A stretch of 22,823 nt of DNA from positions 1 through 22,823 of the IMG/VR virus record IMGVR_UViG_3300005253_000205. One strand, written 5' to 3'. The notes below the pieces were generated by a model, which was not told the origin of the DNA, searched no databases, and worked only from the letters and a program-made list of their open reading frames with translations. Position 1 is the first letter of the stretch, and every line of letters starts with the position of its first letter. This document shows positions 3,160-21,425 of this stretch, piece by piece. The DNA is from a virus. The translations under genes were made by a program, and so were the position numbers.

Positions 3160-4836
3160 TTATAGTCGAGTTAGACCCTCAACAATAATACGACCGTAAA
3201 ACTCTGGTCGAACAATCTTCTTAGCGTAACGAGTCAAGACTCCTCTACGTGGAGTAAAGTTGTCAGGATCGTATACAAGAGGTGTCATTACTAGAGGGAC
3301 GTAAGGTGCGTACACCGCGCCGGTCTCTAGGAAGTTAGATCCCTTGTATCCAAGAAGGATAACGTTCGTTAACATATACGGATTCTTGTATATCGTGTAA
3401 CGGTTCTGGAAGGAACCGACCTGGGTTACTCCAGCTGCATACTTCATTCGGTCACCGTCAGTCTCTACCGTGAAACCAGGAATGGTTTCAAGGATTGTCG
3501 AAACGTCAGGCGAACAAACGATGAAGTTTGCGCCACCACGAAGGGTGAGCTGGTGAATCTTGTTGCTTACCTTTTGGATCTTCTGACCCAAAGTCTCAAA
3601 CCAAGTTTGATTGGTCCAAGCCTGTGCTGCAAGGTTAGCATCGTTCTGGAAGTTGCCTGTTACGCTGTTATATATTCTAGCGATTGTTGTAGACCAAAAA
3701 TCTTGAACCTGTGCATTGATGATAAGCATGTCCAGAATTTCAAGGTCGATTTCAAGTGAGATATACTCACTCAACATCGCCGTTAGTTCTGCCTCAGCGT
3801 CAATGCTGTGATAAGCGTTAAGATCCTGTGCCAATTCAGGCGTCCAAACAGCCTTCAACTTACGAGTCTTTGCTACGATTGGAATGCTCTTGAGCTCCAA
3901 GTCGATCTCTGGAATACCAAGAGATGCCTGTGCTGTTGCAGTTGAGTCAACAAGCTCCGCTCGAGAATCCTCGAAGTCGCCACGGGTTGAATCCGATGGC
4001 TGTGCGTGATATAGAACACTGGTGATGATAGCTTCATCATTTGAACCAGTGTCACTTCCAACGAATACAATAGTTCCACCTGCCTGCGTTCCACTTAGGA
4101 ACGTATATTCAGGTAGCCAACCGTCAAGCTCGACGGATGCTGACATAGGAACGAATGCCCTAATGCCCTCAAAGTCCGGACGAGTGAAGTCGCCTACTGC
4201 TACCTCGTAGAATCTCAAGTTATCGAGAGTTGCTATGACGGTTTCGTTGAAGTTAACTGAGGCTGAAGTAACTGATGCAGATGATGCGAAATCATTCTGC
4301 GTTGCGGTCTGATCGTTGATGGAATAGCCCCATGCTCCATCGCCATACAATCCGCCAACTGGTACTACTGAAGCAGATGGGAATAGTGCTCCCTTGTCCC
4401 CCGTCTTTGTCGTTCCGAATACTGAGTCGCCGGAAGTTCTTGGCAACTTGGTAGTTCCGTACTTGAAGTCCATGAAGAAGATAAGACCAGAAGGAAGATT
4501 CATAGGCTGAATGCTTACGAACTCCTTTGCGGCAATCTCACCAAAGACCTTTCGAACGAGAGGAAGTGCAACACCTGCCCACTGCTCACCCGAACCTGCT
4601 GTGCCGACTGCAATACCGGCAGAGGTTGGGTTTGTGGTTGTGCTTTCGTCAATTAGCTGGCGGGCTTGGTTCTCAAGGAGAACAGCCATGCCGTGACGCT
4701 CATTGTCACCATCAAGTCCTTCTAGAAGGCCGGTTGGGCCCCACTTGCTGGCGAGTGCACGAGTCTGTTGAAGCAGAACTCGATTCGGCGTCTGCGCATC
4801 AGCCATTAATTGACTAAGATTAATTTCACCACTCAT
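3160..4836 (-). CDS. Major capsid protein, T4 gp23-like
   Basis: 558 residues (T4 gp23 is about 521), starting from an ATG with an AGAGGA site. It is recognised by the conserved gp23-family block around residues 107-128 (VSIQPMNLPSGLIF, then MDFKYG) and by the C-terminal block with PLVYDPDNFTPRRG, LTRYAKK and VRPEFYG. The protein forms the HK97-fold hexamer lattice of the head. Residues 1-64 look like the processed prodomain: I62-D63-E64 followed by S65 fits the (L/I)-X-E cleavage rule of T4 gp21, and T4 gp23 is cut after E65, almost the same place. The middle (residues 160-290) is Ser/Thr/Ala-rich and longer than in T4, perhaps a surface insertion. The scaffold gene lies 25 bases upstream and a terminator follows directly, so scaffold and capsid are made from one transcript. 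No separate gp24-like vertex protein is seen in this window. Confidence 0.96.
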   Translation of the reverse strand: MSGEINLSQLMADAQTPNRVLLQQTRALASKWGPTGLLEGLDGDNERHGMAVLLENQARQLIDESTTTNPTSAGIAVGTAGSGEQWAGVALPLVRKVFGEIAAKEFVSIQPMNLPSGLIFFMDFKYGTTKLPRTSGDSVFGTTKTGDKGALFPSASVVPVGGLYGDGAWGYSINDQTATQNDFASSASVTSASVNFNETVIATLDNLRFYEVAVGDFTRPDFEGIRAFVPMSASVELDGWLPEYTFLSGTQAGGTIVFVGSDTGSNDEAIITSVLYHAQPSDSTRGDFEDSRAELVDSTATAQASLGIPEIDLELKSIPIVAKTRKLKAVWTPELAQDLNAYHSIDAEAELTAMLSEYISLEIDLEILDMLIINAQVQDFWSTTIARIYNSVTGNFQNDANLAAQAWTNQTWFETLGQKIQKVSNKIHQLTLRGGANFIVCSPDVSTILETIPGFTVETDGDRMKYAAGVTQVGSFQNRYTIYKNPYMLTNVILLGYKGSNFLETGAVYAPYVPLVMTPLVYDPDNFTPRRGVLTRYAKKIVRPEFYGRIIVEGLTRL

Positions 4837-4861: not shown

Positions 4862-6307
4862 TTAGCTTTTAATTCCTGCGAGCTTCTTAAATCGTGCGGC
4901 CAAAGCTGCACCTTGTGCAAGAACGGTTGGTGTATCGCCTATACCTATAACAGGCGCCTTCCGTCTTGACCTTGTGCTGCCGACGGCTCTTGAAGCTAGA
5001 CCCTCGGTAATCGTTCTCTTACGAGAAACTGGCTTACCTCGGAATGCCTCCGCGAGTGTTGCAAATACCAACTTAGTCTCGCGAACGGTTGTTGCTCTGT
5101 CAAATCCCTCTACAACACGCATCTTCTGACGAACGTCCATATTATATGACTTGAACAATTTGTTCGTGAATAGCAACTTCGCGTTGAGTAGATTTACTTC
5201 GTTGAGCTTACTACGCAGGTATCGAATAGCGTCCCGGTATTCTTTCAGCTCACTTCTAAGAGAAGTAACTTCGAACTGTAATTCATCGTCGTTCTCCTCA
5301 TCTTCGATCTCCTTTAGAATTTCTTCCAAGTCGATTTCGTCATCTTCGCCCTCTTGCTCAGTGATTGCGTCTGTCTGCTTATCGCCTTCTCCCTGAGTAA
5401 AGGATGAATCTGCTGTTACAGATGCGTCCTTCTCACCACCCTCGCCGGGGCCATGTCCATCAGAAACTTCTGCGTCATTTTGTTCTAGTACTGGCTCTTC
5501 CTCTTCTTCATCGGGATATTCCATTCCCATTTCACCACCCTGCTCGCCCATCTCGTCGCCGTACTCGTCGCCGTATTCGTCGTCACCAACCATGTCGGCT
5601 TCTAATTCGGCTATAATTGCTTCTAGGTCAAGATCACGATCACCTTCCTCGTCATCTTCACCACCCATTTCTGGTTCCATTTCACCACCTGTTTCTGGTC
5701 CCAATTCACCACCAAATTCTGGTCCCATTCCACCACCCAATTCTGGTCCCATTTCACCACCCATTTCTGGTGCCAATTCCTCTTCGTCGTCAGCGCCAAA
5801 CGGATCCTCTTCATCATCATCTTCGAAGATTCCCTCTGAAACGGGCGTTCCTGCAGGTTGCTGCAAGCCTTCGTTATCAGTGTCGCCGGAAGTGGTTGCG
5901 GCGGAAGCAGCGGTTGCTGGTTCCTTGGGATTAGAAGTACCATACTGTTGAGTTGGCTCTGTTGCGATAGCCGCGCTATCTAGGCCAACGTCATTGTCAG
6001 CGGTGTCATCAAGTCCTTCTTTGGTAACATCTTGGTCACCCGTAAATGAGGACTTCTCCACTTTCTCTGTGTTCTTCGCGCCGCCTTCGCCAGGACCGTG
6101 ACCGTCAGATACTTCTGCATCATTCAGTTCGTCGATCTCTTCCTCGTCACCATAATCGGTTTCGTTTCTAAGACGGGTAGACAACATTGAGGTTAGGTGC
6201 GGAGTGAATGCCTCTTCTAGAGCTGCCTTTGCATTAAGAAGTGCGGTCTCTCGGACTGCCTTTGCATCTGCAATTGCCTCTCTTAATAGTCTATTCCTTT
6301 TTGCCAT
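4862..6307 (-). CDS. Prohead core scaffold protein, T4 gp22-like
   Basis: 481 residues, much longer than T4 gp22 (about 270). The N terminus (AKAVRETALLNAKAALEEAF, residues 16-34, then HLTSMLS) and the C-terminal helical part (YLRSKLNEVNLLNAKLLF, 363-380, then TNKLF and VRETKLVFATLAEAF) match the gp22-type core scaffold as I know it from aquatic T4-like phages. Between them is a very acidic, low-complexity insert (about residues 50-345) containing Asp/Glu runs, five copies of an eight-residue Gly/Glu/Met/Pro unit (about 178-216) and a duplicated motif NDAEVSDGHGPGEGG at 62-76 and 277-291. A basic tail (RSRRK) ends the protein. It should assemble the inner core on which gp23 builds, and then be degraded by the gp21-like protease. 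It sits 25 bases upstream of the capsid gene. The ribosome site (AAGAGA) is weaker than its neighbours'. Confidence 0.88.
   Translation of the reverse strand: MAKRNRLLREAIADAKAVRETALLNAKAALEEAFTPHLTSMLSTRLRNETDYGDEEEIDELNDAEVSDGHGPGEGGAKNTEKVEKSSFTGDQDVTKEGLDDTADNDVGLDSAAIATEPTQQYGTSNPKEPATAASAATTSGDTDNEGLQQPAGTPVSEGIFEDDDEEDPFGADDEEELAPEMGGEMGPELGGGMGPEFGGELGPETGGEMEPEMGGEDDEEGDRDLDLEAIIAELEADMVGDDEYGDEYGDEMGEQGGEMGMEYPDEEEEEPVLEQNDAEVSDGHGPGEGGEKDASVTADSSFTQGEGDKQTDAITEQEGEDDEIDLEEILKEIEDEENDDELQFEVTSLRSELKEYRDAIRYLRSKLNEVNLLNAKLLFTNKLFKSYNMDVRQKMRVVEGFDRATTVRETKLVFATLAEAFRGKPVSRKRTITEGLASRAVGSTRSRRKAPVIGIGDTPTVLAQGAALAARFKKLAGIKS
5665..5778. repeat. Five tandem 24-bp units inside the scaffold gene
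   Basis: On the plus strand the unit reads roughly CATTTCTGGTCCCATTTCAC plus CACC and repeats with a regular 24-base period, differing by a few bases per copy. It encodes the 8-residue Gly/Glu/Met/Pro units of the scaffold insert. The exact period and near identity suggest recent slippage expansion, so copy number may vary between relatives. Confidence 0.8.
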
Positions 6308-6392: not shown

Positions 6393-6752
6393 TCAAGAAT
6401 GTTTCTTTAAGTAATCCGATGCTCGATGCAACCACTCTATATCATCACCAATCTTTCCTAATGCGGTGTTACAGTGAAAACACAACAACCCTCTAACTTT
6501 TTCAGTGGTGTGGCTGTGATCAACTGCAAGGCGCCGTTTGTCATCAGGAAGATTATTACAGAGTAAACAACGACCATTCTGTTCAGTAAGCATTTGGTCA
6601 TATTGCTCTACTGTGATTCCAAACTTCTTGTTTAGTGTATATTTTCGGCGACGAACTAATTGTTGCCTACGAAAACTTGAGTCAGTTTTGTAGCGAGACT
6701 TCTGATACTCTCGAAAATATTTCTTTCTGTCCATAAACTGTGTTGGAACCAT
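6393..6752 (-). CDS. Endonuclease VII-type HNH nuclease (free-standing)
   Basis: 119 residues. The zinc and active-site residues of the recombination endonuclease VII family are all visible: C62-X2-C65, the D78-H79-S-H81 box and C91-X2-C94 followed by N95. These match T4 endonuclease VII (C23/C26, D40/H41, C58/C61/N62). The preceding segment KKFGITVEQYDQML is the usual lead-in of this family. The N-terminal 35 residues are basic and probably bind DNA. T4 endonuclease VII resolves branched DNA before packaging. Many short family members, however, are mobile homing-type enzymes sitting between phage genes. The position here, alone between a terminator and the scaffold gene, with no clear ribosome binding site and no operon partner, fits the mobile reading better. 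A second in-frame ATG lies six codons in. Function as a resolvase for this phage remains possible. Confidence 0.85.
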   Translation of the reverse strand: MVPTQFMDRKKYFREYQKSRYKTDSSFRRQQLVRRRKYTLNKKFGITVEQYDQMLTEQNGRCLLCNNLPDDKRRLAVDHSHTTEKVRGLLCFHCNTALGKIGDDIEWLHRASDYLKKHS

Positions 6753-7106: not shown

Positions 7107-7331
7107 TTAATTTCTGACTATTACTTTAGACCGATTAATGTTGATTGTTGCACCTTGTGCAAGTCTAACTCGCACGCTTGCAGCTGCCGTCCACAATACC
7201 TCACCAGGTCCATGCGGCGTCTCAACTTTATCGCCTCTCTTCGGCTTCGACTCGTTCAGTTTGATTCCACTCTCCTTCAGGACGCGTCGAACCTCTTCTC
7301 GAACGATTTGTTTTACTTCTCGCTCTCGCAT
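7107..7331 (-). CDS. Small KOW/SH3-like barrel protein, nested start inside the bS21 gene
   Basis: 74 residues. Its ATG at 7331 has an excellent AAGGAG site 8 bases upstream, and both lie inside the 3' part of the bS21 gene in another frame, giving an overlap of 104 bases. Residues 1-22 (MREREVKQIVREEV, RRVLKESG) are a charged amphipathic helix ending in L-K-E. Residues 31-72 (RGDKVETPHGPGEVLW, then VRVRLAQG and INRSKVIV) have the strand and glycine pattern of a small KOW/SH3-like barrel (GDxVxTxxGxGxV...V.V.L). A similar pattern occurs in the 325-residue protein at 13071-14048. KOW-type barrels bind nucleic acids or proteins; the partner is unknown. Being translated from within a ribosomal-protein gene may tie the amounts of the two proteins together. 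Confidence 0.75.
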   Translation of the reverse strand: MREREVKQIVREEVRRVLKESGIKLNESKPKRGDKVETPHGPGEVLWTAAASVRVRLAQGATININRSKVIVRN

Positions 7332-7515
7332 TTGCTTCTCTCCTTCTACGTTTCATCGCCTCTTGTTGTTTCAGCTTGCGCTTGATAGATGGCTTAACGT
7401 AATATTCGTGTTTTCTCAGATCTTCGAGTATACCTGCTCGCTTAACTCGTTTCTTAAACTCCACCAGCGCTTGACCAAACGCTGCTTCACCGTCTCCTCT
7501 CACATTAACCTGCAT
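7228..7515 (-). CDS. rpsU: Phage-encoded ribosomal protein bS21
   Basis: 95 residues from an ATG with an AGAGGG site 5 bases upstream. Residues 1-60 match bS21 along their length: a short strand (MQVNVRGDGE), then FGQALVEFKKRVKRAGIL, LRKHEYYVKPSIKRK, and a basic helix (QQEAMKRRRREA). E. coli bS21 is 71 residues; the extra C-terminal part (about 61-95, Arg/Ser/Glu-rich, ending VEAEERR) overlaps the next gene in another frame. bS21 sits on the small subunit next to the 3' end of 16S rRNA and helps initiation. Phage copies of bS21 are known from aquatic phages and are thought to replace host bS21 and favour phage messages; that role is inferred here. It lies in the accessory block after two small membrane proteins and is transcribed with structural genes, which suggests mid or late expression. 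Confidence 0.88.
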   Translation of the reverse strand: MQVNVRGDGEAAFGQALVEFKKRVKRAGILEDLRKHEYYVKPSIKRKLKQQEAMKRRRREANARARSKTNRSRRGSTRPEGEWNQTERVEAEERR

Positions 7516-7538
7516 AAAAACCCTCTTTCTATAAATAA

Positions 7539-7862: not shown

Positions 7863-8203
7863 TATCCCATCTCCTCTTCACCTGCCACGCCCTCTTCTAA
7901 AGTCGGTATAGGTTTTGAATGTCCATTGCGAATGCGATCTGCTTCCGCACGTTCTTTTGGTGACCACGAAGTCTTACGCTTATTGTGGTGCTGCCAAACG
8001 TCCAGGCCGGCCATTCCGGCCAAAAAAATCAACCATTCCCACACTGGAACCCATGTAGATGTCCAGTAATGGATGGCGGTTCCTAACACAATACCCAATG
8101 TCATTAGGATACGAATATTTGTAGTTGGTGCGGTTGCTATAAGGGAATATACTTTATCTACTATACCATTAACACCGTTACGTACACCTTTAACAATATC
8201 CAT
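7862..8203 (-). CDS. Two-segment membrane protein, holin-like in form
   Basis: 113 residues. The start overlaps the previous stop by one base (TAATG). Two hydrophobic segments are visible at about residues 30-46 (NIRILMTLGIVLGTAIH) and 52-70 (VPVWEWLIFLAGMAGLDVW), separated by a short WTSTW turn. They are followed by a charged tail (HHNKRKTSW, then KERAEADRIRNG). Size, two close membrane segments and a charged C terminus are the layout of many small holins. However, no endolysin is seen in the window, and the surrounding genes look structural. I call it a membrane protein that could be a holin, with low certainty about function. Confidence 0.65.
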   Translation of the reverse strand: MDIVKGVRNGVNGIVDKVYSLIATAPTTNIRILMTLGIVLGTAIHYWTSTWVPVWEWLIFLAGMAGLDVWQHHNKRKTSWSPKERAEADRIRNGHSKPIPTLEEGVAGEEEMG

Positions 8204-9345
8204 TACTTATGCTTCTGACGAATCTTCTTACGATTCTTTGCTGCTTGACGTTTCTTTGAGCCCCACTTGCGTCGGCCCTTATGCTTCTTTGGGTACCCTT
8301 CATTTTTACTTATTCTTTTCAAGTTACGAATCTCTTTTGCTCTAACTCTTTCTGCGGCCGGGGTGAGTTGAGTTTTGTCACTAGAGAATCGTTGTGCCCA
8401 TTTATCTGCGACTCCTTTTCTATCACTACCATGGGATTGAGGTCCACTTCCGGGACCACCCTCTGCTCTCACCTGCATCATTTCAGAAATTCTACTAAAT
8501 ACTTGTCTAGCTTCATCTACATTTTTGACGTTAAGTCTGCGAAGTATTTCTAATGCTTGGTCATGCGTAAAACCCTGCTGCCCACGCGAAATGGAATGTG
8601 GAGTCCGAAGAGCCTTACGTGCTCTAAACTCAGTTTCTTCACCCTTCTCTTCCAAACCTTTATCTGGAAGAATGCGATCCATAACAGAATCAACAATAGT
8701 CTCAACCGTTTCGTCCTCTTCTTCATCATCGTCACCATTAAAATCAAAACCACCATAACCGCCGTCATCTAACATTCCGCCTTGTTCATCCTCTTCTTCA
8801 TCATCACCCGGCAGCGCTCCGCCCATTCCCTGTGCCTGCCCACCCCCAATGTCGCCAGTCGGCATTGCATCTTGTAGTGGCGACATCTCAAAATATCGAC
8901 TCAACACATTACCCATATCATCATAGAGAGCGGTAGACCGTTGCTGCATCATGTCCATTTCTTGAGCCAGTTTGACGAATGAACCTGCGTGCTTCTTCAA
9001 CTCACTCATATTTCTCTTAACTGTATGTCCGTCAAACCAGTCACCTGCTTCTTGCATGACCGTTGCTTCTGCCATCTCAGCGATGCCAGCAATCCGCTTT
9101 GCGACTTCCATAAAGGTGCCAGTTCTCTTGAGAGCTTCACCCAAACGGGAAAAGTCTGCGATGACTGCAACAGGATTCAATGCGGTCTGAGCTTGTTGTG
9201 AATCTCCACCCCTACTGAAATCTTCAATATCATTAGACTTGACGGCATCAGTAGCACTCTGGACTTTTCGGGAGTATCTATTCGCCCCCTTTCCATCCAT
9301 CGGATTTTGTGGTGGTCTACGTTCGTTGTAATTTGGTCCAGGCAT
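8203..9345 (-). CDS. Acidic/basic head-region protein with an E-GGPGSGP motif
   Basis: 380 residues, ATG with GGAG 7 bases upstream. Order of parts: an N-terminal polar region with NPMDGKGANRYSRK; a helical region (about 60-155, ALNPVAVIADFSRLGEALK, later KKHAGSFVKLAQEM); a Gly/Met-rich linker; a strongly acidic stretch (179-214, DDEEEDEQ and DDDEEEDE); a helical part (215-290); the motif RAE-GGPGSGP at 293-302; and a very basic end (336-380, KKHKGRRKWGSKKRQ). I do not recognise a named family. Acidic and basic blocks in one chain, together with its place between the protease and scaffold genes, suggest a minor core or DNA-associated head protein. The same GGPGSGP motif, always preceded by Glu, occurs in the two genes upstream. 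Confidence 0.7.
   Translation of the reverse strand: MPGPNYNERRPPQNPMDGKGANRYSRKVQSATDAVKSNDIEDFSRGGDSQQAQTALNPVAVIADFSRLGEALKRTGTFMEVAKRIAGIAEMAEATVMQEAGDWFDGHTVKRNMSELKKHAGSFVKLAQEMDMMQQRSTALYDDMGNVLSRYFEMSPLQDAMPTGDIGGGQAQGMGGALPGDDEEEDEQGGMLDDGGYGGFDFNGDDDEEEDETVETIVDSVMDRILPDKGLEEKGEETEFRARKALRTPHSISRGQQGFTHDQALEILRRLNVKNVDEARQVFSRISEMMQVRAEGGPGSGPQSHGSDRKGVADKWAQRFSSDKTQLTPAAERVRAKEIRNLKRISKNEGYPKKHKGRRKWGSKKRQAAKNRKKIRQKHK
8441..8463. repeat. GGPGSGP-coding dispersed repeat, copy 1
   Basis: GGTCCACTTCCGGGACCACCCTC on the plus strand encodes E-GGPGSGP on the minus strand. Close copies lie at 9532-9554 and 10460-10483 in two other genes. Similarity at the DNA level suggests shared ancestry of the linker rather than chance. 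Confidence 0.7.
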
Positions 9346-9357
9346 TTATTGTCTCCG

Positions 9358-10026
9358 TTATTTAGTTGCCCATCTTGCTGCACTTTGTCTACTTATAAAG
9401 TGACTCACTTTTCCTTGTCCATTCTTTGCTGCCCATGGGCGGTCTCCCCACTTACTATCCTTCCACACATCACGCTTTTGTCGTTTTGCATCACCACCCT
9501 TATGCTGTTCGCCGCGCGGTAATCTACCACTAGGGCCACTTCCAGGCCCACCCTCTACCACGCCCTCTGTTGCGGTACTAACTCTGTCCTCAAAACCATC
9601 CCTACTTTCACCCTTACGCATTTTAATACCATGCTTAGCGGCAAGCTTGTCTAGTTTCGATGCGCGTTCCCCTTCAGCTGCTGGGTCATAAGCTTCTTTT
9701 CGTACCAATCGTCTTTCCACTAAAACTTCTCGTACCATTTTTCGAACATATTCACGAACTTTTTGGATTCCTTCATTGCGACCTTTAGATTTTCTATCTT
9801 CCGGGTAATCATCATATGCATCTCTATAACGAGCAACTCCACCAACACGTTGAGAGGGCGGAACATCATGTTTGGATGTTCTTACCCAATTCTTATCAGC
9901 GGCTTTTCCTTTTGGAACATTGGCCTCAGTCTTGCCCTTTGCAAAGTTTCCTGATACATAGGAGGCTGGTCCACCCTTATGTGTATAGCCTGCAAATTTA
10001 ATTGCTGCTGTGTGTATAGTTTGCAA
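9358..10026 (-). CDS. Out-of-frame continuation of the repeat protein (rearranged or frameshifted)
   Basis: 222 residues if read from a TTG at 10026. This frame is +1 relative to the upstream 370-residue gene and overlaps its 3' end by 29 bases. Its first residues (AAIKFAGYTHKGGPASYVSGNFAKGKTE, residues 7-34) match the end of the repeat module of the upstream protein, so it begins in the middle of a module with no convincing ribosome site. Later parts are an amphipathic helix (VREYVRKMVREVLVE, 90-104), a basic region, V-V-E-GGPGSGP at 156-165, and a final short module (VWKDSKWGDRPWAAK, then GKVSHFISRQSAARWA) that mirrors module 1 of the upstream protein. It could be a separate gene with a rare start, the tail of a protein broken by a frameshift, a product of +1 frameshifting, or an assembly error. 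The reading frame itself is clearly coding. Confidence 0.6.
   Translation of the reverse strand: MQTIHTAAIKFAGYTHKGGPASYVSGNFAKGKTEANVPKGKAADKNWVRTSKHDVPPSQRVGGVARYRDAYDDYPEDRKSKGRNEGIQKVREYVRKMVREVLVERRLVRKEAYDPAAEGERASKLDKLAAKHGIKMRKGESRDGFEDRVSTATEGVVEGGPGSGPSGRLPRGEQHKGGDAKRQKRDVWKDSKWGDRPWAAKNGQGKVSHFISRQSAARWATK
9532..9554. repeat. GGPGSGP-coding dispersed repeat, copy 2
   Basis: AGGGCCACTTCCAGGCCCACCCTC-like plus-strand segment encoding V-V-E-GGPGSGP on the minus strand. It is nearly identical to the copy at 10460-10483. Confidence 0.7.
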
Positions 10027-11110
10027 ATCGTACTGCCATTCCTCTATCTGGAAAATAGTCTACTTGTCCACTTTTTGCTCTTGCGCCCCATCCCGGATTC
10101 TTTAAGCGATTGTTAGGAGGCGATTGCCAATAACTTCCTTTTGAGTGGATTCTCCATTCCCAACTTGAAGCGTCATATCCTTTTGGTGGTCTGCCTTTCT
10201 TTCTCTGAATACTTGTTTCGTCTTTATCCTCATTCATATGTCTGCCCTCATTGCGACTCTCTCCAAACGCCTTTCTGTCTACAGCCATATCCAAATCACT
10301 TCGCATTGCCTGAAGCCTTCCCAATCCTTGTGTATTATTTTGCTTATATGCCCTAGCCATTTGCTGGTCAACCATATCTTGCATCTTCCTTAATTGACCG
10401 AGAGATTTCTTAGCTAACTTATCAACTGCGCGTTTTTTAGAAGGTAGATTTTTTCTAGTAGGGCCACTTCCAGGACCACCCTCAGTTTTGCCTTTAGCAA
10501 AGTTTCCTCGCACATATGAACCCGGCTTAGTATTTGGATTTGCCCAATCTGCAAACTGCATTGCCTTTGATTTATCTGGAAAGTAATCCACTTCTCCAGT
10601 TTTTGCTCGTGCACCCCAACCCGGAACTTTAAGACCAGTTCCACTACTAGGGCGTGACTGCCAATAGCTTCCCTTTGAGTGAATTCGCCAATCCCAAGAT
10701 GGTTGGTCATACCCGCGGGGAGCTTTACCTTTACCCCTCTGCCGCATGGTTTCGTCCTTTGCTTCGTGCATTCGTCCCATAGTTTTATACCCCGCATATT
10801 TTACTGCATCTTGTTTTGTATTAAAATATGATATTTTCCCTGTGCGTACATGTTTGGCTGCCCAAGGTTTATCTTCGCGCGTCTTATCCTTCCACACAGA
10901 GCCTTTCATTTCCTTTGCATCAGAAGTAGAATCTTCCGTTATTTTCTTTGGAAGTCCCTTATGTTTCGTTGAAGCAAAATCTTTTGCATCCTTCTTCTTT
11001 ATTGATTTTGCTGTTTTGGCAACTTCAGGACTGGCTGCTTTACCACCCTTCTTTTGAGCGGAATGTACCATTCCCATAAATCGTTGCTGAGCTACTGATT
11101 TTGCCGGCAT
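9998..11110 (-). CDS. DUF3008-like domain fused to repeated W/Y/F-rich modules
   Basis: 370 residues; ATG with GAGGA upstream, two bases after the protease stop. Residues 1-56 (KSVAQQRFMGMVHSAQKK, then ASPEVAKTAKSIKKKDAKDF and STKHKGLP) match the small DUF3008 family, whose function is unknown. Three copies of a module then follow. Copy 1 (72-108) is VWKDKTREDKPWAAK with ISYFNTKQDAVKYAGY. Copies 2 (127-190) and 3 (305-366) share YDxxSWxWRIHSKGSYWQS, GWGARAKxGxVDYFPD and a final FA. Copy 2 is followed by SYVRGNFAKGKTE and GGPGSGP (211-217). A helical spacer (220-285) separates copies 2 and 3. Each module looks like a short beta sheet plus a helix ending in Phe-Ala. The protein is rich in Lys and Gly, so a DNA-contacting or packaged head protein is plausible. 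It ends mid-module at a stop, and the next frame carries on the repeat. Confidence 0.75.
   Translation of the reverse strand: MPAKSVAQQRFMGMVHSAQKKGGKAASPEVAKTAKSIKKKDAKDFASTKHKGLPKKITEDSTSDAKEMKGSVWKDKTREDKPWAAKHVRTGKISYFNTKQDAVKYAGYKTMGRMHEAKDETMRQRGKGKAPRGYDQPSWDWRIHSKGSYWQSRPSSGTGLKVPGWGARAKTGEVDYFPDKSKAMQFADWANPNTKPGSYVRGNFAKGKTEGGPGSGPTRKNLPSKKRAVDKLAKKSLGQLRKMQDMVDQQMARAYKQNNTQGLGRLQAMRSDLDMAVDRKAFGESRNEGRHMNEDKDETSIQRKKGRPPKGYDASSWEWRIHSKGSYWQSPPNNRLKNPGWGARAKSGQVDYFPDRGMAVRFANYTHSSN
10460..10483. repeat. GGPGSGP-coding dispersed repeat, copy 3
   Basis: AGGGCCACTTCCAGGACCAC followed by CCTC on the plus strand. The similarity extends into the flanking FAKGKTE-coding bases, which recur near 9925-9955. 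Confidence 0.7.
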
Positions 11111-11111
11111 C

Positions 11112-11708
11112 TTATTTCCTCGTCACTTCGCTCATAAAATCATATACAAGACTGTTGACCCGGCACCAGGCGCCACACTTAGCTCCAGGCAAAACCGACT
11201 CGTTAATGAATGCTCCCTCTGTTGAAGGATTTGAGACGACATCGAAGCATATCAAAGAAAAATCCTCTTGAACCTCAACGGTCTCATCATCCAGTTCCTT
11301 AATTGAACCAAGACCACGACTAGAAATTCCCAACTTAATATTATTCTTCAACAGTTCCTTGAGAATGTTACCCGATGGGGTGCCTAAAACTTCTATGTTG
11401 CCCATCAAATTTTCACCATTGAACCAAAGCTCAGTAAGATTATGAGATACATTCTTAAGGTTGACAACTGGGCTTTCTGGATGATCCAGTTCGCCAAGCG
11501 CTCGTCGTTCTGTAATGAACTGCTTGTATCTCTCGGCCTCACGCATCAGAATTGGCATAGGATAAATTCGGCCATTCTGGTTCTTTTGGTTCGCCGTTTG
11601 GAGAACCACGTTCTTAAGAATAAGCGGGCCGCCTCTACCTAACGCCTCGGTAATCATTTGGCGGTCGTAGGTCAAATATGTGAAATCTGTTAGTATCTGT
11701 TCAGTCAT
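11112..11708 (-). CDS. Prohead core protease, T4 gp21-like
   Basis: 198 residues, close to T4 gp21 (about 212). The start has AGAGGA upstream. Catalytic-type residues of this herpes-assemblin-like serine protease family are visible: H76 in GELDHPESP, a serine at 129/130 in KLGISSRGLGS, and D156 in CFDVVSNPSTEGAF. QNGRIYP near residues 44-50 is also typical of the family. The enzyme is built into the prohead, is activated after assembly, and cuts scaffold, capsid and internal proteins after (L/I)-X-E before DNA enters. The classical T4 order 20-(67-68)-21-22-23 is kept only loosely: about 4.8 kb of accessory genes separate this gene from the scaffold gene. Confidence 0.92.
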   Translation of the reverse strand: MTEQILTDFTYLTYDRQMITEALGRGGPLILKNVVLQTANQKNQNGRIYPMPILMREAERYKQFITERRALGELDHPESPVVNLKNVSHNLTELWFNGENLMGNIEVLGTPSGNILKELLKNNIKLGISSRGLGSIKELDDETVEVQEDFSLICFDVVSNPSTEGAFINESVLPGAKCGAWCRVNSLVYDFMSEVTRK

Positions 11709-15007: not shown

Positions 15008-16867
15008 TTAGTTTTCCTCTTCAACGAAGGTTGCTTCTAGCGCTTCCTCTTCCATATAGCTTGGGGATTCGTCGTCGGACTTGCCTTCGGCCAACATTTT
15101 TGCTTCCTCTGTTCCGAATTTCGCCGCAAGAGTTTTCACGAAATACTTAAAGTCTAAACTCTCTCTAGAGAACGCTTTTCTTGTTTTGAGCCTCGGACTT
15201 TCAGGATCACGATGAAGTGCCTTTCGGTTTTCCTTGGCTCCAAACGGATCTCGGCCCAATGGATGTTTGTCAGAACCCAACCTTGGAACTTCTCTTGGTC
15301 TGCCTACGGCACCTTCTTCTGCAGAGGGCAAACCTTCCAAGTTTGCTCCACCAGGTTGGGCCCCACCGCCCATTGATTCACCTCCAGGAGTTCCCGTTCC
15401 ACCTTGTGCTGCTGGATCTTCGCCCTGCTCTATTGCCAACAATCGGAAGAGACGTTTCTTGTCCTTAACGACTGTTACCCTCTGCTCCTCTACTTCATCC
15501 TCACTCATACCTAAAATCTTATCGTAAATCCAATCACTGCCAATGAGATTGGTCGCCGCCATCTCAGCTGCTAGTCTAACTCTTTCCGACCATAATTGGA
15601 TTTTCTCTTGCTCATAAATCGTAGATGGGTTGGTTAGGTTCAAACTGAAATCTACTAACCGTTCGTCCTGGAATCCTTGCGCGTATAGATGAACAACAGC
15701 AATTTTGGTCAGTTCAGAAATTACAATTCTCTGAATTCGTTCAATCGTCCTAGCGAACCGAACATCTTCTGCTGCCAAAGTTGCCTTGCCACTAATATTC
15801 TCTTCATATCCAAGGAATGAACGAGGAACCTTCAGCGCACCAATCATTTTGTTACGAAGATATTCAACATCTTCGGTTGCGTTAAAAGTTAATCCATTCA
15901 AATTTTCGATTTGAGTTCCACCATCTCCGCCTCGTACTGGCAGATAAAAGTCCTCAATGACATTCATCAAGTTGAATTTAAGATTGTAGTCGCCAGTTTG
16001 AGGATCAATGAGCGGAGTCTTTTGTACCTTCTTAATGAGGCGTTCCATATAAACGTCTACTTCATCAGGTGGAAGATTACCAATATCCACTCTAAAAATT
16101 CTTCGGTCTGGCGCTCTAACTAGTCTATGAACTAGCATAGCATCTTCCATTAACTGTAGCTGCTTCCACGTTCGGCGGGCAGGTTCAATCATTGCCTTAC
16201 CGTATGGGAGGAAGTTACTGTCTGCTAACAGACGGAAATGGGCGATTTCGTAGTTTTCGAATCGGTCCCTTGGAGTTTGGACGCCGAGTGTCTGGAAATA
16301 GACCTCGTATGGGTTGGCTGGGTTTTCTCCCTCTACACGAATAGTATCGTATACACTAAGCGGAAGAACATTGACGATACCATACTTCTCTGTAATCTCT
16401 AAGAACAGGAAGAAGTCGCCGTATTTACACATATTACGAAGCCACGGCCATAGATTGAACTCAATGTTCAAAATATCATAGAACAAGTTGTGCAAGATTT
16501 CTCGAACCTGCTCATCAGGAGCCTCAATAACAAGCGACTCACCTTCCTCAGACTTAACCGTTGATTCATCTGCATAAATGTCAAGTGCTGACGCAATGAT
16601 GGCGTCGTTATCCATAATATCATAGTCACGGAATAGCTGGAGTCTTGCTCCTTGGTATGCCAGCCCGTGCTCAGTTCTATTTGCAGTGTGTGGTCCAAAG
16701 TGTTGATAATGGATACGATTGTATCTGTCATACAGCGTTCTACTAGTGAACGCTTGCATGCGACTGGTATCCATAACCTTAAGTTTGGATCCACCAACAT
16801 TCCGCACAATGACACTTGTGCTGAATAATCTTTTTAATCTCTTATATAGGTTTTTAGACTTAGGCAT
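15008..16867 (-). CDS. Portal protein, T4 gp20-like
   Basis: 619 residues (T4 gp20 is 524), ATG with AGAGGG. Family features: RDYDIMDNDAIIASALDIYA (80-99) followed by DESTV, then WPWLRNMCKYGDFFLFLEI, ENYEIAHFRL, PYGKAMIEPARRTWKQLQLM, LVRAPDRRIFRVDIGNLPP, and DVEYLRNKMIGALKVPRSFL followed by GYEENISGKATLAAEDVRFA. These are the hallmarks of gp20-type portals. Twelve subunits form the ring through which DNA is packaged and to which the neck attaches; it also starts prohead assembly. The C-terminal part beyond about residue 490 is extended, Gly/Pro-rich (GGTGTPGGESMGGGAQPGG) and then acidic/charged, which accounts for most of the extra length. An 18-base gap separates it from the ParB-like gene. 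Confidence 0.95.
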   Translation of the reverse strand: MPKSKNLYKRLKRLFSTSVIVRNVGGSKLKVMDTSRMQAFTSRTLYDRYNRIHYQHFGPHTANRTEHGLAYQGARLQLFRDYDIMDNDAIIASALDIYADESTVKSEEGESLVIEAPDEQVREILHNLFYDILNIEFNLWPWLRNMCKYGDFFLFLEITEKYGIVNVLPLSVYDTIRVEGENPANPYEVYFQTLGVQTPRDRFENYEIAHFRLLADSNFLPYGKAMIEPARRTWKQLQLMEDAMLVHRLVRAPDRRIFRVDIGNLPPDEVDVYMERLIKKVQKTPLIDPQTGDYNLKFNLMNVIEDFYLPVRGGDGGTQIENLNGLTFNATEDVEYLRNKMIGALKVPRSFLGYEENISGKATLAAEDVRFARTIERIQRIVISELTKIAVVHLYAQGFQDERLVDFSLNLTNPSTIYEQEKIQLWSERVRLAAEMAATNLIGSDWIYDKILGMSEDEVEEQRVTVVKDKKRLFRLLAIEQGEDPAAQGGTGTPGGESMGGGAQPGGANLEGLPSAEEGAVGRPREVPRLGSDKHPLGRDPFGAKENRKALHRDPESPRLKTRKAFSRESLDFKYFVKTLAAKFGTEEAKMLAEGKSDDESPSYMEEEALEATFVEEEN

Positions 16868-17790: not shown

Positions 17791-19404
17791 TTATCCAAGT
17801 AACCAACGAATATCTTCTACATCATTTGGACGATTTGGCCCACCAACAGGCATCTTGTAAGGGTCTCCAACCGGCGATTGTGGCGTGTACACGTCTTGAT
17901 ATTCTGTTCTGTGTGCGAAATTATCCAAAGCCGCTTTAGTAAGTGAGTCACTACGCTTTCTCAATTTGAGAGCAGTGTCCCTTACCCACAATCCAATAGC
18001 GAGCGCCATAGTCAAATCGTCATTGTATCCTTCCATAGCTTCTGGCCGGCTTCCCTTCCAAACGAAAACCTCTAGTTCTTCATAGGTGCGTTGGGAATGA
18101 ATAGTGACTGCGTGGTCTCTCATATATTCATCTAATTTGGAAATGATAAGCGGCCTCGTCCTAATGGACGTAGTGAAACCAGGTACTTTCTTTCTCTCGA
18201 AAAATTTACGTTTTGTTGTTTTCTGCTTTGCATGGGTCGGATCCATAAATTTCCAATCTTCTTCCATGTAGAAAAGATTCTTGTAACCACGATCAATAAC
18301 CTCTTGTAAAACTGACCATCCTATAGTGGAATTCTCAATCACTAACAACGCATCATTATATTCGGTTGCAATTGCTACAAGCATTTGTCCAAATTCTTTT
18401 GTGCCAAGCAATCCCTTGTATTCCGCTACTTGCGTGACAGATTCCAAATCTATTACATGGAAAGCAGATTTATCATTCGAATCGCCGCGCGCTACATCAG
18501 CTACTATCATAAAGGAACGGCCAGCCATCGGATATTCCCAAACCCATATATTCTTATCAAATCCTCGTTTTTCAACAGGGGCTTTTTCGAAAGTCTGTCT
18601 GTAAAACTGAATCAAGTCACCATTGATTACGGTATTACCAGATGCAATAAAGTCCGCATCATGCTCTTGTCGTGCTGCCATTTCGCCTTGGTCTTTAGTC
18701 TGCTCGTCTCTCCAATCCTGCTCTCTCTCAGGGTGAACTGACCAATCCAAGAAAATCGGATAAAAGTTATTATTCCCGAGCGACGATTCTACCCATGTCT
18801 TATGGAAGAAATTACCCATGCCGTTAGGTGTGCTAAGAATAATTCCCTTTCCACCTGTAGACAACGTAGAATATGCAGACTTCCAAATTTCCTCGGCTCC
18901 GTCGATGAATGCACCCTCATCAAGAATGAGTAAAGATAGTGCTTCGGAACGTCCTGCATCTGGGCTACTTGCAATAGCTTTGATTTGAGAACCGTTAAAA
19001 AACGACAAAGATAGTTTGTTATCTTCGGTGCAGTTACCACGTAGCCACACTGGAAGATTTTGATGCATGACACGAACCTTCGTTACTAGGTTCTTTGCCG
19101 TGTCCTGTTTCGTTGCAATAACCAGAATGTTTTGGTCATTGTGAAATAACATTAACCAAAGTGAATACCCCGCTACCAGTGTTGACAAGCCAATCTGACG
19201 AGCTTTCAACACAATGTTGAACCTATTATCTAAAAATTTACCCAGCGTTTCCTCTTGAAAGTCATATAGATTGAATGGAATTTTTCCCCGAATCGGGTGC
19301 TGAATTATACAATACTTCTTTAAGAAGTGCGCAGAGTCGAGAGCACACCTCTTATATTCCTTCTTAATGATGTCTCTTAACTGTGTAGCTTGAGACTGAG
19401 CCAT
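17791..19404 (-). CDS. Terminase large subunit, T4 gp17-like
   Basis: 537 residues (T4 gp17 is 610); ATG with GGAGG, overlapping the previous stop by one base. The ATPase domain has a Walker A-like LKARQIGLST at 66-75, Walker B LLILDE at 158-163 with the catalytic Glu, and the coupling motif ILSTPN at 189-194. The RNase H-like nuclease domain has its three acidic sites: D303 in VADVARGD, E357 in VIENST and D462/D463 in YNDDLTMA, in the order of T4 gp17 D401, E458 and D542. The protein drives DNA into the prohead through the portal and cuts the concatemer. A small subunit (gp16-like) is not identifiable in this window. The downstream neighbour is not gp18 or gp19 as in T4 but a short leader-bearing protein. 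Confidence 0.96.
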   Translation of the reverse strand: MAQSQATQLRDIIKKEYKRCALDSAHFLKKYCIIQHPIRGKIPFNLYDFQEETLGKFLDNRFNIVLKARQIGLSTLVAGYSLWLMLFHNDQNILVIATKQDTAKNLVTKVRVMHQNLPVWLRGNCTEDNKLSLSFFNGSQIKAIASSPDAGRSEALSLLILDEGAFIDGAEEIWKSAYSTLSTGGKGIILSTPNGMGNFFHKTWVESSLGNNNFYPIFLDWSVHPEREQDWRDEQTKDQGEMAARQEHDADFIASGNTVINGDLIQFYRQTFEKAPVEKRGFDKNIWVWEYPMAGRSFMIVADVARGDSNDKSAFHVIDLESVTQVAEYKGLLGTKEFGQMLVAIATEYNDALLVIENSTIGWSVLQEVIDRGYKNLFYMEEDWKFMDPTHAKQKTTKRKFFERKKVPGFTTSIRTRPLIISKLDEYMRDHAVTIHSQRTYEELEVFVWKGSRPEAMEGYNDDLTMALAIGLWVRDTALKLRKRSDSLTKAALDNFAHRTEYQDVYTPQSPVGDPYKMPVGGPNRPNDVEDIRWLLG

Positions 19405-20762: not shown

Positions 20763-21341
20763 TTATTCCTTTATCCTTATGAAATTACATCCAAGATATT
20801 CTGAGATTACTTTTTGTCTTTGAATATCTTTTACCCTAAGTTTACCGCTCCTATAATGATTCCGTTCATCATATTCGATGACAACATTTTTTTCTCTGTC
20901 ATATCCATCCACCCAATAGCCTAATTCTTTGATATGATATTCACCGCCATTTTCTGCGTGTTGGAAGTTGAATCCATGTTTCTTGCCGTATTCTTCTATT
21001 GATCTGCATGCTTTAGGATTGTATGACGGAACGTAACCATTTCTTTTCAATCGTTTAACAGCAGAAATACGCATTTTACATATAGTTTCTGCGGAGTGTT
21101 TCCTTCTTTTTCTGTTACTACTACACATTTTGCGACGCGCTTCTATTGTATGCTTCCGACCAAACATAGGATTGTCATTTCCTTTAGTTTTTGTATGGCC
21201 TTTTTCGAAACAACCAGCGGTTAGTCCTGTGTGAGAACATGACCGGCATTTAAGATTTTTAATCTGTGCTCGGCGAAGCTCTTCTTTGACCGTATAAGTC
21301 TGTTCTGCTCCACATGCAGGGCAAAATTTTATATACTTCAT
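20763..21341 (-). CDS. NUMOD3 / PD-(D/E)XK-type free-standing homing endonuclease
   Basis: 192 residues from the ATG at 21341, which has AGGAG 9 bases upstream; a GTG two codons earlier is too close to that site. Parts: an N-terminal zinc ribbon (C7/C10, C32/C35); a NUMOD3 DNA-binding motif (NDNPMFGRKHTIEARRKM, 56-73) with a second related helix (HSAETICKMRISAVKRL, 82-98); and a C-terminal Vsr/DUF559-like nuclease region (GYWVDGYD, 141-148, then VVIEYDERNHY, 153-163, and VISEYLGCNFIRI). D145 with E156/D158 are candidate catalytic acids, as in homing enzymes with an EDxHD or Vsr-like core. NUMOD3 is typical of phage homing endonucleases. Lys/Arg-rich composition, lack of an operon partner and its insertion between two unrelated genes support a mobile gene. 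The natural target may lie in a related phage lacking it. Confidence 0.85.
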   Translation of the reverse strand: MKYIKFCPACGAEQTYTVKEELRRAQIKNLKCRSCSHTGLTAGCFEKGHTKTKGNDNPMFGRKHTIEARRKMCSSNRKRRKHSAETICKMRISAVKRLKRNGYVPSYNPKACRSIEEYGKKHGFNFQHAENGGEYHIKELGYWVDGYDREKNVVIEYDERNHYRSGKLRVKDIQRQKVISEYLGCNFIRIKE

Positions 21342-21425
21342 AACCACAATCTCCTAAAATGGTGTCCCATCTAAATATACCCTACTATAACTATCATCTG
21401 GATAGAGAAGAGTCACCAAACTGAA

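Follow-up and report, generated by a model that had tools for sequence, protein, structure and literature searches.

A ribosomal protein bS21 gene in the head-gene block of a T4-like phage clade

Why does a virus carry a ribosomal protein gene among the genes that build its head? This question is raised by the stretch of DNA analyzed here (the window), a 22.8-kb record of a T4-like virus of bacteria (IMGVR_UViG_3300005253_000205, 22,823 nucleotides) with no other genome attached. It has been reported that bS21 is the most common ribosomal protein in phages (Mizuno 2019, PMC6375957), that in phages of freshwater Bacteroidetes it lies in the vicinity of the genes for TerL, portal, protease, and capsid (Chen 2022, PMC9723584), and that its co-location with the protease and capsid genes extends to hundreds of phages whose hosts are diverse (PMC9723584). 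Substitution or steering of host ribosomes by the phage protein was put forward in Chen 2022 as a hypothesis, not as a result (PMC9723584). Given the coverage of these two papers, the finding and the interpretation of the first-pass annotation of this DNA match published work: head-linked phage bS21 and the ribosome-steering idea are already known, the window is a further case, and the gene itself will not surprise a specialist.

Identity and setting of the bS21 gene

The first-pass annotation had placed a phage bS21 at 7228-7515 and had left its strand unstated. These coordinates are exact: an intact gene for a 95-aa protein lies on the minus strand, with its ATG at 7515 and its stop at 7228-7230, and a plus-strand reading of the same interval was rejected because its translation is not bS21. 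Two family models confirm the assignment, both with scores above their curated cut-offs: Pfam Ribosomal_S21 (PF01165) matches residues 13-58 (1.5e-13, 50.6 bits; cut-off 27 bits), and the equivalog TIGR00030 matches residues 9-59 (3.3e-14, 52.5 bits; cut-off 28.95 bits). These spans agree with the earlier statement that the first 60 residues fit bS21 along their full length. The last ~35 residues are not covered by the family model, and their coding sequence overlaps the next gene. PHROG 21469 ("ribosomal protein S21") matches residues 12-69, and the best solved-structure relatives are all bS21 chains in ribosome structures.

The annotation had also named the loss of conserved rRNA-contact residues as an observation that would count against its reading. 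The strongly conserved positions are largely kept: among the 24 columns that are at least 90% conserved in ~80 bacterial bS21s, 18 are identical in the window protein and six differ, and the core residues A16, L17, F20, K21, G28, R34, K41, P42, R46, K47, K49, and K55 are all present. An AlphaFold2 model built from a 15-row alignment predicts helices at residues 10-27, 29-36, and 44-74, in keeping with the expected two-helix fold of bS21, with a mean pLDDT of 78, 61-68 in the tail, and a pTM of only 0.35.

The surroundings of the gene are those of a T4-like head region, with the following features:

3160-4836, minus strand: major capsid protein gp23 (Pfam Gp23, 2.4e-76)
4862-6307, minus strand: scaffold-like acidic protein, encoded upstream of the capsid gene at the place of gp22 (assigned from position and sister contigs)
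7228-7515, minus strand: phage bS21 gene (Pfam, NCBIfam, and PHROG matches; orthologue in the near relative L001 87% identical)
11112-11708, minus strand: prohead protease of the T4 gp21 type (Peptidase_S77, 3.1e-23)
15008-16867, minus strand: portal protein gp20 (Portal_T4, 2.6e-66)
17791-19404, minus strand: terminase large subunit, TerL (Pfam and PHROG profile matches)

The late structural operon that had been claimed is thus present, with gp23, the gp21-type protease, the gp20 portal, and TerL all on the minus strand. Every recognized head gene of the window shares this strand with bS21, which lies within a few genes of the protease, capsid, portal, and TerL genes. A Pfam search of the scaffold-like protein found no family. 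The position in a head operon, together with a very basic tail, would also suit a use outside the ribosome, with bS21 as a head protein that binds RNA or DNA through its basic charge, but the window protein keeps the ribosomal core positions and purifying selection on phage bS21 has been reported (PMC6375957), and we give this reading the smallest probability of all those considered.

The near relative L001 (IMGVR_UViG_3300037247_000443), whose capsid protein is 95% identical to that of the window, has a bS21 tail four residues shorter and differs in several small genes around the head block. An endonuclease VII-family ORF at 6393-6752, between an 83-aa gene and the scaffold gene, is missing there in L001 and seems to be a mobile insert; another such ORF, of the NUMOD3 type, lies at 20763-21347 in the window. 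L001 in turn has an additional 76-aa ORF (5694-5924 in L001) between a 107-aa gene and bS21; the window lacks it, so that small genes turn over in the flank of bS21. The minus-strand window ORFs 9998-11110 (370 aa) and 9358-10026 (222 aa, TTG start) correspond to one 361-aa ORF in L001 (2797-3882) and contain internal repeats of the type SSWxWRIHSKGSYWQS, and the pair suggests a frameshift, a split, or a repeat-driven rearrangement in the window. The motif EGGPGSGP, perhaps a linker or a protease site, is shared by these two ORFs and the adjacent ORF 8203-9345.

The arginine-rich tail and its overlapping gene

What, then, is the part of the protein that the family models leave out? Residues ~62-95 form an Arg-rich tail, encoded where the bS21 frame extends over the initial 104 nt of a neighboring gene that is read in another frame:

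7107-7331, minus strand: 74-aa gene with no assigned family, found only in the window and L001 (95% identical)
7228-7331, minus strand: overlap of the bS21 3' end with the 74-aa gene, 104 nt, same strand, +1 frame, encoding the Arg-rich tail (conserved in L001, 92 nt)
7340-7345, minus strand: Shine-Dalgarno (SD) sequence of the 74-aa gene, AAGGAG, lying within the bS21 frame at a spacing of 8 nt from the ATG of the 74-aa gene (L001 has the identical sequence)

The Arg-rich end is specific to the lineage of the window and L001. Sister bS21s have a length of 69-72 aa and are directly followed by the scaffold gene, without the 74-aa gene, which has no homologue among the other capsid relatives. 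Pfam, PHROG, and NCBIfam searches of the 74-aa protein found no family, and its weak matches to DUF348 (Pfam, E 0.22) and to a poly(rC)-binding protein (PDB, E 0.035) were rejected. Between the window and L001, 6 of the 104 overlap sites differ, compared with 40 of 305 outside the overlap (Fisher p 0.047). For the 74-aa protein, five of these six changes are silent; of the five that were scored in the bS21 frame, only one is synonymous and four alter bS21. Changes that are silent in one frame and altering in the other indicate that constraint acts on the 74-aa protein and that the bS21 tail is overprinted. As judged from these sequences, the tail is most likely a by-product of the later insertion of the 74-aa gene, which would have come to lie where bS21 ends, with the result that bS21 now reads through its start in the other frame. 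If the tail were a pure by-product, however, a bS21 frame open to at least 91 aa would be expected in 0.9% of codon-resampling draws, so some selection keeping the frame open is possible, the evidence coming from one lineage.

In other phage bS21s, the overlap with the next gene is mostly 1 nt and in some cases 35-41 nt. The longer overlaps occur in a group of phages from the bS21 scan (L038, L041, L067, L077, L079, L082, and L083), where the bS21 3' end overlaps a gene of ~362 aa; they are a smaller version of the arrangement in the window. An apparent overlap of 110 nt in L025 was set aside as probably due to an over-long ORF.

Distribution and descent in the T4-like clade

Relatives were collected by scanning IMG/VR with a capsid alignment, and the capsid flanks were searched with a bS21 profile; carriage was counted in the 57 records whose DNA extends 3.5 kb or more upstream of the capsid gene. 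Forty-two of the 57 have bS21, usually between the protease and the capsid gene. The 45 profile matches obtained in the relatives are all on the same strand as the capsid gene. Carrying bS21 is therefore the norm in this capsid clade, and the starred capsid clade (the window, L001, and five further contigs) has it in all members. The gene was not detected in the region of the other 15 relatives, which suggests that it is dispensable; among those without it is Flavobacterium phage immuto, which is closely related in its capsid protein. In the bS21 tree, which has only 61 usable columns and mostly weak forks, the window protein is placed with sister phage bS21s, in a 95-starred set, and not with one bacterial group. 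Carriage throughout the starred capsid clade and grouping with phage proteins point to a gene resident in the phage clade, not freshly derived from the present host.

Among the carriers is the cultured Microcystis phage Mel-JY01 (PP395634), in whose record the gene is already annotated as RpsU. As in the window, its RpsU lies between the prohead protease and a gp23-type capsid gene on the same strand, in the same T4-like capsid clade and with SD-rich genes; its capsid protein is ~49% identical to that of the window, and its RpsU, unlike the window protein, has 75 aa, no Arg-rich tail, and no overlap with the next gene. The Bacteroidetes phages of Chen 2022 resemble the window in the genes that surround bS21 (TerL, portal, protease, and capsid), with late expression proposed; they differ in that bS21 and the structural genes are encoded on opposite strands there, whereas in the window they share one strand. 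The pelagiphage HTVC008M likewise carries bS21 in a large myovirus, of a more distant lineage (TerL ~31% identical).

The location of bS21 between the protease and the capsid gene in most carriers is also what would be expected if the protein were packed into the head with other core proteins, injected, and active at the onset of infection, an idea raised in Chen 2022 (PMC9723584). However, no packaging signal was identified, and the gene position is also compatible with late expression; we consider packaging improbable.

Shine-Dalgarno use, the host, and the proposed role

The first-pass annotation had stated that most genes here have strong ribosome sites, and this statement stands. Using as criterion a core of at least 4 nt at a distance of 4-12 nt, 17 of the 21 window genes have an SD core, compared with 19% of the remaining ATGs on that strand (Fisher p 3e-9); the SD fraction is 0.81 against a null of 0.26, and 0.00 (0/24) in phage immuto. 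The bS21 gene itself has the following site:

7522-7525, minus strand: GAGG, the SD core of bS21, part of AGAGGG and spaced 6 nt from the start codon

The residue of bS21 that bears on anti-SD availability gives a concordant picture. It has been reported that, in F. johnsoniae, the Y54A change or loss of the C-terminus of bS21 increases the translation of strong-SD messages (PMC9976891). In the window protein, Lys55 aligns with this Tyr54, the residue that locks the anti-SD in Flavobacterium, so that the aromatic residue is not present, and it matches the Lys of E. coli; Lys is found at the equivalent position in E. coli and in 94% of the sampled bacterial bS21s. Neither mark of the anti-SD-hiding Bacteroidota type is thus found, the aromatic residue being absent and the genes SD-rich. 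The Chen 2022 phages, by contrast, have an aromatic residue 54 and Bacteroidetes hosts. SD-rich genes and a Lys at the anti-SD-locking position point to an SD-using bacterium as the most likely host. A bS21 phylogeny had been suggested as a way to find the host, but it did not name one, since the window protein groups with phage bS21s over the 61 columns. In a genome scan, the best among the matches listed was a deltaproteobacterial MAG (45%), and the matches favored Bacillota-like sequences.

Within the capsid clade (loci L167-L246), 29 of 41 bS21 carriers are SD-rich, compared with 2 of 15 non-carriers (raw Mann-Whitney p 9e-4). It is important to note that this comparison contains at most four informative independent contrasts on the tree, with host as a confounder, and that the association between SD use and bS21 presence is not significant once independent changes are counted, these being too few. 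The link is a lead, not a result. The residue at position 54 does not correlate with SD use (5 aromatic versus 40 others, p 0.21).

These observations bear on two readings that involve the anti-SD. According to the first, in a host of the Bacteroidota type, a non-aromatic phage bS21 would free the anti-SD, to the gain of SD-bearing phage mRNAs. The Lys at the Tyr54 position, the F. johnsoniae results, and the more frequent SD-richness of carriers would fit; but the window gives no sign of a Bacteroidota host, Lys is the normal state in bacteria, the SD link has few independent contrasts and is host-confounded, and the Bacteroidota phages of Chen 2022 retain the aromatic residue (PMC9723584). 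We judge it very improbable. According to the second, a clade bS21 without the locking aromatic residue would keep the anti-SD open, so that SD-led phage messages win, and the overprinted Arg-rich tail would be a new rRNA or mRNA contact; this seems to us a long shot, if a slightly better one.

A stronger competitor, although still unlikely in our estimation, is that phage bS21 acts by dosage only, sustaining initiation after host synthesis stops without any preference for phage messages. bS21 is needed for efficient initiation in general (PMC6375957), the core of the window protein is close to the bacterial consensus, and the window genes carry ordinary SDs that any SD-using ribosome could read. 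On the other hand, phage bS21s form a group separate from the host ones (Chen 2022), and here they group by phage clade, which suggests more than the simple copying of a host protein.

The explanation that we favor, and hold to be on balance probable, is that bS21 is inherited within the T4-like phage clade as part of the late head-gene block and would be made with the capsid proteins late in infection. On the 30S platform, near the 3' end of the 16S rRNA, it would then exchange with the host's bS21 and would keep or bias initiation towards the abundant SD-led late messages of the phage. The family scores, the 18 of 24 conserved positions, the carriage by 42 of 57 relatives, the strand agreement in 45 of 45 matches, the Mel-JY01 synteny, and the SD use all support this explanation. 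For late expression, ribosome incorporation, and any mRNA bias we infer from analogy: bS21 is transcribed late in head-linked phages (Chen 2022, PMC9723584), and the bS21 of HTVC008M enters E. coli 70S ribosomes (PMC6375957). Against it stand the 15 of 57 relatives without bS21, the six of 24 differing positions, and, again by analogy, the impairment of E. coli ribosomes by the sole phage bS21 tested, that of HTVC008M, with which they translate at only ~5% of control (PMC6375957). That the window protein replaces the host copy or favors phage mRNAs is accordingly best regarded as a reasonable published hypothesis.

These results provide evidence that bS21 in this T4-like clade behaves as a syntenic gene of the head block rather than as a stray acquisition, and with the window the head-linked bS21s, previously detailed for Bacteroidota phages, gain a lineage whose host apparently uses SDs. 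If the reading in which the clade protein keeps the anti-SD open were true, bS21 carriage would go with SD-led translation of late phage genes. The SD-rich carriers and the mostly SD-poor non-carriers of one clade offer a set in which the effect of bS21 on mRNA choice can be tested.
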